DNA from: Ignavibacteria bacterium | GTDB lineage: Bacteria > Bacteroidota > Ignavibacteria > UBA10030 > F1-140-MAGs086 | Length of the DNA: 42,592 bases | Assembly: GCA_016873775.1 (NCBI GenBank) | Contig: VGWC01000014.1 | Location: 1 to 42,592, forward strand | Direction: 5' to 3' | Part shown: piece by piece, positions 1 through 42,592 of the stretch | Numbering within the stretch: position 1 is the first letter of the stretch | How the letters are laid out: every line of letters starts with the position of its first letter | Made by a program: the position numbers and the translations under genes | Notes under the pieces: generated by a model | Told to the model about the DNA's origin: nothing | The model's input: only the letters and a program-made list of their open reading frames with translations | Database searches by the model: none

Positions 1-2
1 TA

Positions 3-83
3 GCAACCGAAGCAATTACAGAATTGGAAACTGTTGTTGATGACCTTCGTGAAATTTTAACCCTGCTTGAAAATGGAGAATAG
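3..83 (+). CDS. hsdM: Type I restriction-modification methyltransferase subunit HsdM, C-terminal end only
   Basis: Only the last 26 codons are in the window, in the frame beginning at base 3 and ending with TAG at 81-83. The peptide (ending LREILTLLENGE) is an acidic, helical tail of the kind that closes HsdM subunits. The identity rests mainly on position: it overlaps the start of hsdS by 11-17 bases, the usual translational coupling of hsdM and hsdS. HsdM supplies the adenine methyltransferase activity of the type I complex. Nothing catalytic is visible here. Confidence 0.6.
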   Translation, partial: ATEAITELETVVDDLREILTLLENGE

Positions 84-1530
84 TTTACCAACAAATTGGG
101 TTGAAGTCCAGTTGGAGGAATTATTAGTTTCTCTTGAAAGTGGTTCACGACCAAAAGGTGGAGTTCGTGGAATTGCTGAAGGTGTTCCAAGTGTTGGAGG
201 CGAACATTTGAATGATGATGGAGGATTTAATTTTACAAACATCAAGTTCGTTCCGAAATCTTTTGCATCAAAAATGAACAGAGGCAAAATAAATTCACAT
301 GATGTATTGATTGTAAAAGACGGTGCAACAACTGGAAAAACTTCATTCATAAATGGAAGTTTTCCTTTTGATGAAGCAGTAGTGAATGAGCATGTTTTTA
401 TTTGTCGTGCAAGTGCAGAGTTTAATCCTAAATTTCTTTTTTATTTTTTATGGAGCAAAGAAGGCAAAGAAAAAATTTTAGAAAACTTTAAAGGTTCTGC
501 ACAAGGTGGAATCAATACAACCTTTGCTTCAAACTTATTAGTTCCTGTTTCACCCCTTGCAGAACAACACCGCATAGTAGCCAAATTAGATTCCCTCTTT
601 GCAAAAACAGAAAGCAACAAACAACGCTTAGAAAAAATTCCACAACTCCTCAAACGCTTCCGTCAATCTGTTTTAGCCGCAGCCGTTAGCGGAAACAATG
701 GCATTGAAGAAATTGCAAACAATGTTTGTTCTGAAATTCAAATTGGTCCTTTCGGAACACAACTGCATAAACACGATTACATTTCTAAAGGTATTCCTTT
801 AGTTAATCCAACTCATATTCAAGCAGGGGAAATTGTTCCTGATATGGATTTGACAATTTCAAAAACCAAATTCAAAGAGTTGTCAAATTATCATTTGCAA
901 ACTGGTGATGTAATAATGGGAAGAAGAGGAGAAATGGCAAGATGTGCTTTGGTTGGCAAGAAGGAAAATGGTTGGTTGTGTGGAACAGGAAGTTTGTTTT
1001 TTCGTCCTGACTTAAAAAAAGTAAATCCACAATATTTGTTTTGGGTATTAAGCAACAACAACACAAAAGCATTTCTTGAAGGTGAAGCAAAAGGAAGCAC
1101 AATGAGTAATTTGAATTTGAACATCGTTAGAAATATTCCAATTCCACTTCCACCGCTTGAAGAACAAAAAGAAATCGTAAAACAAGTAGAACAACTTTTT
1201 GCGTTCGCAGATAAAATAGAAAACCGCTACACCAAAGCCAAAACTATGATTGATAAATTGCCACAAAGCATTTTGGCAAAAGCATTCAGAGGAGAGTTGG
1301 TTTCTCAAAATGCAGATGATGAACCGGCAAGTATGCTGTTGGAGAGAATTGCGCTTGAGCGTGCACGAACTAAAGTTCGAGTAACAAAACGAACCGAAGC
1401 GCAGGTAATGCAACGAACTAAAGTTCGTTCTACAAGCGTAACACGAACTTCAGTTCGTGAAAAAGTAATACGAACTTTAGTTCGTAGAAATATAACTCAA
1501 ACTTCCATTCGCAAGAAAAGAAAACAGTGA
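67..1530 (+). CDS. hsdS: Type I restriction-modification specificity subunit HsdS with repeat-extended C-terminus
   Basis: DNA-recognition subunit of a type I restriction-modification complex; it dictates the bipartite target for HsdM and HsdR. Two target-recognition domains are seen (about residues 7-160 and 215-360), each followed by a conserved coiled-coil spacer: PLAEQHRIVAKLDSLF at about 163-178 and PLEEQKEIVKQVEQLF at 363-378. The frame opens at TTG 67; ATG 73 is an equally good start, and both lie inside the hsdM end. Residues 433-487 are odd: a basic tail made of repeated RT(K/S/L)VR peptides encoded by a palindromic DNA array. HsdS proteins normally end soon after the LLERI motif, here at about 423-427, so this tail looks like an in-frame insertion that kept the final KKRKQ. 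The last codons overlap the start of the downstream transposase gene. Confidence 0.93.
   Translation: MKMENSLPTNWVEVQLEELLVSLESGSRPKGGVRGIAEGVPSVGGEHLNDDGGFNFTNIKFVPKSFASKMNRGKINSHDVLIVKDGATTGKTSFINGSFPFDEAVVNEHVFICRASAEFNPKFLFYFLWSKEGKEKILENFKGSAQGGINTTFASNLLVPVSPLAEQHRIVAKLDSLFAKTESNKQRLEKIPQLLKRFRQSVLAAAVSGNNGIEEIANNVCSEIQIGPFGTQLHKHDYISKGIPLVNPTHIQAGEIVPDMDLTISKTKFKELSNYHLQTGDVIMGRRGEMARCALVGKKENGWLCGTGSLFFRPDLKKVNPQYLFWVLSNNNTKAFLEGEAKGSTMSNLNLNIVRNIPIPLPPLEEQKEIVKQVEQLFAFADKIENRYTKAKTMIDKLPQSILAKAFRGELVSQNADDEPASMLLERIALERARTKVRVTKRTEAQVMQRTKVRSTSVTRTSVREKVIRTLVRRNITQTSIRKKRKQ
1365..1511 (+). repeat. Array of short palindromes inside the 3' end of hsdS
   Basis: Four clear copies of a 14-16 bp palindrome with core CGAACT-NN-AGTTCG lie at 1365-1380 (centre AA), 1413-1428 (AA), 1443-1458 (TC) and 1470-1485 (TT). 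Degenerate copies lie at about 1389-1401 and 1498-1511. Spacing is about 24, 24, 30, 27 and 27 bases, always a multiple of three, so the hsdS frame stays open and each copy reads RT-x-VR. The same unit recurs in the next gene. Confidence 0.9.
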
Positions 1531-2279
1531 AGCATTACTACAAACGCCACTTACCGCATTACCAATCAAGCGGCAATTCTTTTTTTATTACGTATCGTTT
1601 GGCTAACTCACTTCCCGTCAATGTCATTGTAGAATTGAAAGAACAATTTGAAAAACTTCGCCGCGACGGCAAACCATCATACGACGAACAAAAGCGGTAC
1701 TTTGGAAAATTCGATGTGTATTTAGATAAATGCGAAAAAAGTCCGAAGTGGTTAGCAAATGATGACGTTGCGAAAATTGTTGCTGATGCAATACTCTCAC
1801 GCGATGGAAAAGAATACAATTTGATTTGTTATTGTATAATGCCAAACCACGTGCATTTGGTAATCACTGTTCCTGAACCCGTAACTCGAACTTCAGTTCG
1901 AGAAGACGTAACACGAACTTTAGTTCGTGAAGACGTAACTCGAACTTCAGTTCGAGAAGACGTAACACGAACTTTAGTTCGTGATGAAACCGAATCTACA
2001 CGAACTGAAGTTCGTGCAACAAGCGAAACAAACGCTCCATATTCCGAATACATCGTAACTTCATTTCTTCGAGGATTGAAAGGAAGTACTGCACGTGAAG
2101 CAAATAAAATCCTCAATCGCACTGGCGCATTTTGGCAACACGAAAGTTACGACCACATTGTCCGAGACGAAAAAGAATTATTTCGTATCGTTGAATATGT
2201 TTTAAACAATCCTGTGAAAGCGGGATTAGTTTCGGAACGGAATGAATGGAAATGGAGTTATGTAAAGAAGTTTGAATAA
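1527..2279 (+). CDS. REP-associated tyrosine transposase (RAYT, IS200-like Y1 family) with internal palindrome array
   Basis: A 250-aa single-strand DNA transposase of the HUH (TnpA-REP / Y1_Tnp) type. The metal-binding HUH pair is H108-V109-H110 in the motif CIMPNHVHLVI. The likely catalytic tyrosine is Y208 in WQHESYDHIVR, followed by the family's typical EYVLNNPVKAGLV (residues 223-235). The start is GTG 1527, overlapping the hsdS stop (GTGA). Residues about 119-165, between the HUH half and the FLRGLKGSTAREANKIL helix, are a nonapeptide repeat (VTRTSVRED / VTRTLVRED) encoded by a tandem palindromic array; relatives have only a short linker there. RAYTs are normally single-copy genes that act on REP palindromes near them, so here the enzyme may carry its own substrate inside its gene. 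Whether the protein is still active is unknown. Confidence 0.88.
   Translation: MKHYYKRHLPHYQSSGNSFFITYRLANSLPVNVIVELKEQFEKLRRDGKPSYDEQKRYFGKFDVYLDKCEKSPKWLANDDVAKIVADAILSRDGKEYNLICYCIMPNHVHLVITVPEPVTRTSVREDVTRTLVREDVTRTSVREDVTRTLVRDETESTRTEVRATSETNAPYSEYIVTSFLRGLKGSTAREANKILNRTGAFWQHESYDHIVRDEKELFRIVEYVLNNPVKAGLVSERNEWKWSYVKKFE
1886..2015 (+). repeat. 27-bp tandem array of palindromes inside the RAYT gene
   Basis: Four copies start at 1886, 1913, 1940 and 1967, exactly 27 bases apart. Two versions alternate: TCGAACTTCAGTTCGA (1886, 1940) and ACGAACTTTAGTTCGT (1913, 1967), giving a 54-bp higher-order unit. A fifth copy, ACGAACTGAAGTTCGT, lies at 2000-2015 with the centre in the opposite orientation. 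The outermost bases covary (T with A, or A with T), so pairing is kept. The array encodes RTSVR, RTLVR and RTEVR in the transposase frame. Confidence 0.92.
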
Positions 2280-2280
2280 C

Positions 2281-2337
2281 GTAAGACGATGGTCAAATCG
2301 TCTTCTTGATATATTGACAAACTGAAGTTTGTCTTAC
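2281..2337. repeat. Intergenic composite palindrome, candidate REP doublet (REPIN-like)
   Basis: Directly after the RAYT stop there are two hairpins. The first pairs AAGACGAT (2283-2290) with ATCGTCTT (2297-2304) around a 6-base loop. The second is the palindrome GACAAACT-GA-AGTTTGTC (2316-2333), a variant of the array unit in which CGAACT/AGTTCG has become CAAACT/AGTTTG, a compensatory change in both arms. The pair is framed by GTAAGAC (2281-2287) and GTCTTAC (2331-2337). There is no T-tract, so a terminator is less likely than a mobile repeat. Confidence 0.7.
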
Positions 2338-41073: not shown

Positions 41074-42592
41074 TCACTCCTTCATCCCTCTCCACAACAC
41101 GCCGCCACACACAACCGCAATAACGAGCAATGCAACGCCAAAACTAATTTCACCAAATAAAATTTTTCCAACGCCGAAAAGAGAAGAATACACTAACACA
41201 ACTCCCGCGCACCATTGCAGCAATTGCTTTCCAAAATGAAAATCCGTTTGAATATTCGGAAGAAGTTGTGCAATTGGTTTCCACATTCCGCCGGGACGAA
41301 TGCGTGTGTAAAATTCTTTGAGAACATTTTCTTCCGTTGGTTTTGTAAGAAACGTAACAACGAGCCATACAATAGTTGTAACGCCGACAATAAAGAACAG
41401 CGAGTTGGGAAACGTTATATCGGTGAAAAATTTTATATACGCATACATAAAAAACGGCGTAAGCATTGCGGCGATTTCACTCCACGCATTTACGCGCCAC
41501 CAATACCAACGCAGAATCAACACAAGTCCAAGTCCCGCGCCTGCTTCGATAATAAATGACCACGCGCCGGAAATCGTTTGAATAAACATTGTAACGACAA
41601 CGGAAACGAGCATTAATAGTATCGTCGTAATTCTTGAAATGCGAACATATTCTTTTTCCTCTGCTTCTTTTTTTACAAAGCGGCGATAAAAATCATTCAC
41701 GACGTATGATGTTCCCCAATTTAAATGCGTTGCAATCGTGGACATATACGCCGCGAAAAACGCAGCGACTAACAATCCAAGCAATCCCGTTGGAAGAAAA
41801 TCGCGCATCGCAAAAACGTAACCAAGTTTTTTATCGGCGAGCGAAAGTTGCGGATACAAGACAAGCGTTGCAAGTCCCGTAAGAATCCAGGGCCACGGAC
41901 GCAAACAATAATGCGCAACGGTGAACCACAATGTTGCAAGCACGCTGTGTCGCTCATCTTTTGCCGCCATCATTCGCTGCGCAACATAACCGCCGCCGCC
42001 CGGTTCTGCTCCCGGATACCACGATGCCCACCATTGAATTCCGATGTACGCAAGAAATCCCATAACGGAAATTGCGAGCGTTGTTCCCATTTCCGAAGTT
42101 GCATTTCCAACATTAGGAAAAAAATCAAAATAATATTTTGGAAGTTTTTCTTGCAATCCAGTTATTCCACCGACTTGTGGAAGTTGTAGTAAAAGAATCG
42201 CAAGCACAAGCGTTCCGACCATTGCAAACACGAATTGAAACACATCTGTCGCCGCAACGCCCCACAATCCCGACATTGCCGAATATGCTGCAACAAGCAC
42301 CATACACGCGGCGATGTAAAAAATACTTTGCGAATGTGCGATGCCAAAAATGCCTTCGAGAATGGACATCATCGCGACGTTCACCCAACCCATAATGATG
42401 CAGTTGAGAAACAATCCGAGATAGAGCGCGCGAAATCCACGAAGAAATGCGGCTGGTTTTCCCGAGTAGCGCAGTTCGATAAATTCCACGTCCGTCATTA
42501 CACCCGCGCGTCGCCAAAGTTTTGCAAAAAAGAAAATTGTGAGCACACCGCCGAAAACAAAATTCCACCAAAGCCAATTGCCTGCGATGCCA
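41074..42592 (-). CDS. Sodium:solute symporter family transporter, N-terminus outside the window
   Basis: A multi-pass inner-membrane transporter of the SSS family, 5'-truncated by the window end; at least 505 codons are visible and translation continues beyond 42592. Family marks near the visible N-terminus are LWRRAGVMTDVEFIELRYSG, then LNCIIMGWVNVAMM. Further on come YSAMSGLWGVAATDVFQFVFAMVG, the substrate/Na+ region with AAFFAAYMSTIATHLNWGTSYVVNDFYRRF, and long hydrophobic helices throughout. It takes up a solute with sodium; the substrate cannot be named, although the AYMSTIATHLNWG stretch resembles carriers of sugars or organic acids. The C-terminal part has two extra hydrophobic helices (WCAGVVLVYSSLFGVGKILF and FGVALLVIAVVCGGVLW). 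Confidence 0.92.
   Translation of the reverse strand, partial: GIAGNWLWWNFVFGGVLTIFFFAKLWRRAGVMTDVEFIELRYSGKPAAFLRGFRALYLGLFLNCIIMGWVNVAMMSILEGIFGIAHSQSIFYIAACMVLVAAYSAMSGLWGVAATDVFQFVFAMVGTLVLAILLLQLPQVGGITGLQEKLPKYYFDFFPNVGNATSEMGTTLAISVMGFLAYIGIQWWASWYPGAEPGGGGYVAQRMMAAKDERHSVLATLWFTVAHYCLRPWPWILTGLATLVLYPQLSLADKKLGYVFAMRDFLPTGLLGLLVAAFFAAYMSTIATHLNWGTSYVVNDFYRRFVKKEAEEKEYVRISRITTILLMLVSVVVTMFIQTISGAWSFIIEAGAGLGLVLILRWYWWRVNAWSEIAAMLTPFFMYAYIKFFTDITFPNSLFFIVGVTTIVWLVVTFLTKPTEENVLKEFYTRIRPGGMWKPIAQLLPNIQTDFHFGKQLLQWCAGVVLVYSSLFGVGKILFGEISFGVALLVIAVVCGGVLWRGMKE

Follow-up and report, generated by a model that had tools for sequence, protein, structure and literature searches.

In-frame REP hairpins in a type I hsdS gene and the adjacent RAYT gene of an Ignavibacteria bacterium

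How does one palindrome come to stand, always in the same reading frame, in two unrelated genes that overlap? The question is raised by a contig of an Ignavibacteria bacterium (C14 of an assembly of 2.54 Mb in 157 contigs), whose whole length of 42,592 nucleotides is here called the window, and near whose start the gene for a type I restriction specificity subunit, hsdS, runs into that for a RAYT transposase.

The locus and its foot-tagged hairpins

The genes concerned are the following:

3..83, forward strand: hsdM 3' end, the remainder of which lies on contig C112 (96% identity to residues 444-469 of the C112 hsdM)
67..1530, forward strand: hsdS, type I specificity subunit (PF01420, 1e-30; PADLOC Specificity_I, 1.6e-91)
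1527..2279, forward strand: RAYT/TnpAREP (HuH Y1 transposase), with a GTG start and a 4-bp overlap with the hsdS stop

Since the hsdM ends on both contigs are identical for 55 nt (the first 55 of the window and C112 4009-4063), C14 and C112 are, judging by sequence, most likely one operon that forks at two alternative hsdS genes. C112 carries hsdR, an intergenic REP array, hsdM and the start of another hsdS, in this order, and the complete operon most likely reads hsdR, REP array, hsdM, hsdS with a REP tail, RAYT with a REP array, and an inverted REP doublet. The two hsdS genes that follow the same hsdM end (window 1-640 and C112 4009-4633) are different, with a central conserved segment in common, and may represent strain variation or an hsdS-switching locus.

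Exact cores of the palindrome, CGAACTNNAGTTCG, begin at 1366, 1414, 1444 and 1471 in hsdS (spacings 48, 30 and 27) and at 1887, 1914, 1941, 1968 and 2001 in the RAYT gene (spacings 27, 27, 27 and 33). Each of the nine begins on the first base of a codon and therefore reads RT-x-VR, just as a sequence-only reading of the window had described, and the tenth core, at 2318-2331, does carry the paired G-to-A/C-to-T change noted there. With up to two mismatches, CGAACT-NN-AGTTCG gives 10 matches, against a mean of 2.28 and a maximum of 7 in shuffled sequence. The palindrome of 16 bp that had been taken as the element is real, but the element is larger: most copies have a stem of 8 bp around a centre of 2 bases, immediately preceded on the 5' side by a GTAA or GTAG foot, and because of this foot the palindromes are, on sequence grounds, REP elements. 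The copies and related hairpins are:

1366..1379, forward strand: hsdS copy 1, core palindrome with an imperfect outer pair and without a GTAR foot
1412..1433, reverse strand: hsdS copy 2, GTAG-AACGAACTTTAGTTCGTT, inverted partner of copy 3
1438..1459, forward strand: hsdS copy 3, GTAA-CACGAACTTCAGTTCGTG, folded as a DNA hairpin
1465..1486, forward strand: hsdS copy 4, GTAA-TACGAACTTTAGTTCGTA
1492..1512, forward strand: decayed copy in the hsdS tail, ATAACTCAAACTTCCATTCGC, recognised by sequence and the 27-bp period
1881..1902, forward strand: RAYT copy 1, GTAA-CTCGAACTTCAGTTCGAG
1908..1929, forward strand: RAYT copy 2, GTAA-CACGAACTTTAGTTCGTG
1935..1956, forward strand: RAYT copy 3, same sequence as copy 1 (54-bp duplication)
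1962..1983, forward strand: RAYT copy 4, same sequence as copy 2
1999..2016, forward strand: RAYT copy 5, CACGAACTGAAGTTCGTG, without a GTAR foot
2281..2302, forward strand: downstream hairpin with a different stem, GTAA-GACGAT-ggtcaa-ATCGTC, folds as a DNA hairpin
2316..2337, reverse strand: downstream REP, GTAA-GACAAACTTCAGTTTGTC, forming an inverted doublet with the 2281..2302 hairpin, feet outward

The feet in the window are GTAA with a single GTAG exception, and the bottom of the stem is mixed. Both genes hold their copies in frame, as had been proposed, but in hsdS these form a C-terminal tail and not an internal insert: the PADLOC Specificity_I match stops at residue 443, and the final ~55 codons are REP-derived.

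In the 2.54 Mb genome, exact matches to the foot-bearing pattern GTAR-NNNN-AACT-NN-AGTT number 11, of which the window contains 8 and C112 the other 3. No dispersal of the exact pattern is seen over the whole genome: the foot-tagged copies all lie in one hsdR-REP-hsdM-hsdS-RAYT operon. Upstream of hsdM, in the same operon, C112 has four further copies or near-copies, arranged like those in hsdS (an inverted copy and CTAC, then, after 2 to 4 nt, GTAA and two direct copies in a row), so that one arrangement is coding in hsdS and non-coding upstream of hsdM. The exact core alone occurs at 14 sites genome-wide, against none for the reversed control pattern. C31:87 and C96:28 mark a single footless site, in a 127-nt contig overlap, which was excluded from the REP count, and the copy at C128:575, with a TTAA centre and in another frame, is probably due to chance.

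Other repeats were observed in passing. The junction of contigs C31 (20-110) and C96 (1-150) holds a cluster of footless, intergenic perfect palindromes (TGACTTTAGTCA, GGCTTTAGCC, CCACGAACTTTAGTTCGTGG, CCACGACTTAAAAGTCGTGG), a repeat type different from the window REP, and an unrelated 27-bp tandem repeat lies near the contig end at 42311-42364 of the window. Inverted REP doublets (window 1412-1459, C112 2572-2617, and loci L274 and L276 of the related genome G040) tend to combine one GTAA with one GTAG foot, as if their partners were distinct types. A scan of the palindrome region against Rfam matched no family.

Pairing and reading frame

Covariation was assessed in 40 distinct copies from seven genomes. 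Standard pairs fill 95.3% of the pair cells, and the covariation score is 0.294, compared with 0.097 +/- 0.015 in shuffled sets and at most 0.064 with slid partners; as the inner pairs are fixed by the search pattern, only the three outermost count as covariation. Pair 1 occurs in all four Watson-Crick types, pair 2 as A-T (11), T-A (8) or G-C (19), and pair 3 mainly as C-G, with T-A once. Within this genome alone, 8 of 8 distinct copies are perfectly paired, with both-side changes at three positions. The covariation of outer bases suggested from the window is thus borne out across the 40 copies, but the alternation of T..A and A..T in the RAYT array reflects a single duplication of 54 bp, covering two types of unit, hence one or two events and not four, and should not be taken for repeated covariation.

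At the protein level, pair-2 changes alter the third base of Thr and Arg codons, without effect on the peptide, and the pair-1 change in hsdS copy 4 (1465-1486) turns Thr into Ile and Glu into Arg with pairing intact. That nine copies have a common frame is unsurprising, because the foot always brings a stop into one forward frame, and 34 of the 40 copies leave the RT-x-VR frame open. These sequences support the view that pairing, not peptide, is what stays conserved; pairing could be kept up by selection or by template switching within the hairpin, and the data fit both. The earlier proposal that the fold is kept while the frame is tolerated agrees with this, and also with the predicted disorder of the RAYT loop and the empty hsdS tails of orthologues described below.

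The RAYT, related genomes and a second REP family

The RAYT protein matches PF01797 (5.6e-6, 26.9 bits, cut-off 23) and, in two separate stretches, the NCBIfam model REP_Tyr_transpos (NF047646; 6.1e-22, 78.1 bits, just under the cut-off of 80). Residues M105, N107, H108, H110, W203, Y224, N228 and P229 are invariant in 50 homologues. TnpAREP (PDB 4ER8) is the only PDB sequence match (7e-11) and also the top fold match (1e-6), with IS200-type TnpAs next at 0.015; the closest structural relative is TnpAREP, not IS200 TnpA. The REPs lie in frame at about residues 118-165, between the HuH motif (107-110) and the tyrosine (224). In an AlphaFold2 model, the core is mostly above pLDDT 90 and the insert (121-170), at pLDDT ~50 and with no secondary structure, is predicted to be an unstructured or disordered loop. 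As in a REPtron, the gene is flanked by REPs, the hsdS array upstream and the inverted doublet downstream. REPs thus both flank and enter this gene, and the RAYT had rightly been singled out as the relevant neighbour, by which the copies may have been moved. Its position next to hsdS is not a general rule, since in this RAYT clade a tblastn search with HsdR, HsdM and HsdS, covering 122 loci, turned up hsd genes beside no other member.

The window REP was matched in 24 of 98 genomes of the order, with a clear excess over the reversed control in G023 (49), G067 (22), G032 (14) and G040 (11), and it is through these genomes that the element shows the marks of a REP, a foot and hairpin in many dispersed, mostly extragenic copies. 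Among 86 copies read with their surroundings, 74 lie outside any frame of 120 aa or more and 12 inside one, several of these frames being short and doubtful; in-frame doublets in a 666-aa frame of G059 and in the G032 RAYT are convincing. In relatives the foot is mostly GTAG. The sequence-only reading had held that a lack of other copies in the genome would count against it; its own genome, with foot-tagged copies in one operon, comes close to this, but related genomes do contain the element in dispersed form.

In the close relative G023 (locus L125, contig C130, 997-2268), tandem arrays of 53-bp REP units flank the RAYT gene, five upstream and six downstream, and no REP lies inside it. An orthologous hsdRMS operon is found in G040 (hsdM 74-76% identical); neither there nor in G004 does a RAYT lie beside the hsdRMS operon, and their hsdS tails are without repeats, so that the comparison of hsdS orthologues suggested earlier yields tails with and without the array. 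No close relative of the window RAYT was found in G040 (11 copies) or G067 (22 copies); therefore either the pairing of RAYT and REP is not strict or RAYTs have been lost.

The genome of the window encodes a second RAYT, on contig C81, with its own foot-tagged hairpin (GTAR..ACAANTYTCY..TTGT), which occurs in frame inside that RAYT and is also dispersed elsewhere in the genome. In guaA (GMP synthase; locus L187, contig C47, ~640-710), an in-frame inverted doublet of this second family, RQVSNLSTGQIGNLSYK, sits in a loop; at this loop position most relatives have a short segment, and a genome of the same genus (G001, L326) has another insert there, of greater length, SSVVARSEATKQSPKHQ... Over their last 209 bp (window 2075-2283, C81 1-209; 127 nt exact, at a contig fork) the two RAYT genes share 97% identity, against ~55% in their N-terminal halves, with the break just after the REP-bearing gap. 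This shared 3' end looks like gene conversion, for which reason we do not lean on the grouping of the window RAYT with its C81 paralogue in a tree.

Origin of the in-gene copies and RAYTs in defence genes

We consider it very probable that these REPs are of the kind handled by the RAYT they surround, that they were seeded near it and tandemly multiplied, and that copies leaving the frame open survived. Each REP, a foot with a stem of ~8 bp, folds as a single-stranded DNA hairpin, which the RAYT presumably cuts and joins; landing places would have been the region upstream of hsdM, the C-terminal tail of hsdS and the loop on the RAYT surface that separates the HuH motif from the tyrosine motif. 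Slippage may then have multiplied landed copies as units of ~27 bp, or 54 bp in the RAYT gene. Within genes, only insertions with a stop-free frame would survive, selection removing those that break it, and the RT-x-VR peptide would be a by-product sited where protein structure tolerates it. The gap insert follows a wider rule among RAYTs: in 86 distinct homologues, hairpins with a stem of 7 or more number 26 in 5,751 nt of HuH-Y gap versus 28 in 48,711 nt elsewhere, and codon-shuffled gaps give a mean of 2.4 and a maximum of 7. A GTRR foot is present in 20 of the 26, and their stems differ between RAYTs, so that the location is common and the sequence is not. Mobilisation by this RAYT, and the manner of movement, we infer.

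It is unlikely, in our judgement, that the in-gene copies are a cis-acting part, by which the RAYT binds its own gene or mRNA for self-regulation or always transfers together with seeding substrate for a new host. The internal array and the downstream doublet do stand together at the RAYT gene, and unrelated hairpins are found at the same place in many RAYTs. However, just 14 of the 86 RAYTs have a gap hairpin with a stem of 7 or more, the G023 RAYT lacks internal copies despite having the same REP, and the similar insert in the guaA loop is in a place where no such role is expected.

A plain minisatellite, in which replication slippage duplicated a chance palindrome in tandem with no transposase involved, is improbable. 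The 27- and 54-bp periods of the window and the 53-bp arrays of G023 are what it would produce, but slippage accounts for tandem growth and not for the seeding of REPs: one operon has three separate arrays with foot, stem and inverted doublet in common, other genomes contain the element in dispersed form, and both arms change together. That RT-x-VR is a selected peptide repeat with a protein function, for instance one in which basic repeats let HsdS and RAYT touch DNA, is hardly credible. All nine copies do have one frame in common, and the hsdS tail is basic, but few frames of the palindrome are stop-free and one is closed by the foot in every case, a change of pair brings other amino acids with it, and disorder is predicted for the RAYT loop. 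We reject this reading on the orthologous hsdS tails without RT-x-VR, the covariation, and the non-coding state of the array upstream of hsdM and of nearly all copies in relatives.

REPs within genes have precedents. REPs inside subclass 2.4 tnpAREP genes, as a rule in the peripheral variable stretch that separates HuH from Y and with the frame undisrupted, were described by Quentin et al. (2018; PMC6006769). The window RAYT resembles these in being a HuH Y1 protein with NHVH, WQ and YVLNNP motifs and in carrying its in-frame REPs on a peripheral variable loop, inserted between HuH and Y; it differs in the second REP array, in hsdS, and in the confinement of its REPs to one operon. As the published rule (a GT[AG]G foot with a G-C-rich stem bottom, or a double foot) does not describe REPs with mostly GTAA feet, a stem bottom other than three G-C pairs and no double foot, the RAYT is subclass-2.4-like and is not assigned to subclass 2.4. 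Foot-tagged GTAG REPs in frame within unrelated ORFs of many proteins, often grouped and some C-terminal, were reported by Di Nocera et al. (2013; PMC3733652), many of them in DNA-metabolism genes. The window resembles these cases, but the parts of that paper considered here do not name hsdS as a host gene, and the foot here is GTAA. E. coli TnpAREP (4ER8) is the closest solved structure by sequence and fold, and its REPs likewise have a hairpin with a 5' tetranucleotide, but it is only ~15% identical to the window RAYT, and REPs of the E. coli subclass have longer, bulged stems with no in-gene copies reported (PMC6006769). Rickettsia palindromic elements, to which the repeats had been likened, are also palindromic and in frame in unrelated genes, but this kinship is not supported: the window repeats are REPs that carry a foot and lie both beside a RAYT gene and within it, and they are set apart by their ~22 bp, their foot, their RAYT partner and their mostly extragenic state in relatives. 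Because in-gene REPs were described in 2013 (PMC3733652) and 2018 (PMC6006769), the window adds a clear case to a known kind of element; what is new is a REP array in the tail of hsdS, a foot that is mainly GTAA, and the confinement to one restriction operon.

In a related clade, RAYTs are nested in frame inside other genes: in 9 of 9 cases in which a RAYT was found within a frame of 450 aa or more, the host was a restriction, methylase or defence gene:

Eco57I type IIG hosts, L121 (G018), L289 (G356) and L109 (Halochromatium roseum): RAYT between methylase motifs X and I
HsdR hosts, L290/L295 (G239), L296 (G382) and L291/L297 (G344): RAYT between HSDR_N and the helicase
HmaB (DUF1156) hosts, L292 (G138), L293/L299 (G334) and L300 (G440): RAYT at two sites

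Insert sites differ between hosts, several nested RAYTs are flanked by in-frame repeats, and on the RAYT tree the nested label requires two changes, versus 8.3 in shuffles; this set is not an unbiased survey, because two queries derived from nested RAYTs. A literature search found no paper describing RAYTs nested in restriction, methylase or defence genes, and combining RAYT with restriction gave nothing relevant. We suggest, tentatively, that genes for restriction, methylation and other kinds of defence might be preferred sites for RAYTs and their REPs, since such genes may tolerate inserts, move together, or gain from a single-strand nuclease domain.

The nested RAYTs could open the question why these transposases sit in restriction systems. 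With two RAYTs and two REP families in one genome, the specificity between RAYT and REP is testable, and one REP can be compared side by side where it is coding, where it is non-coding and in orthologues that lack it. The locus offers a clean example of a hairpin repeat surviving in coding sequence, through an open frame and a loose protein segment as landing place.
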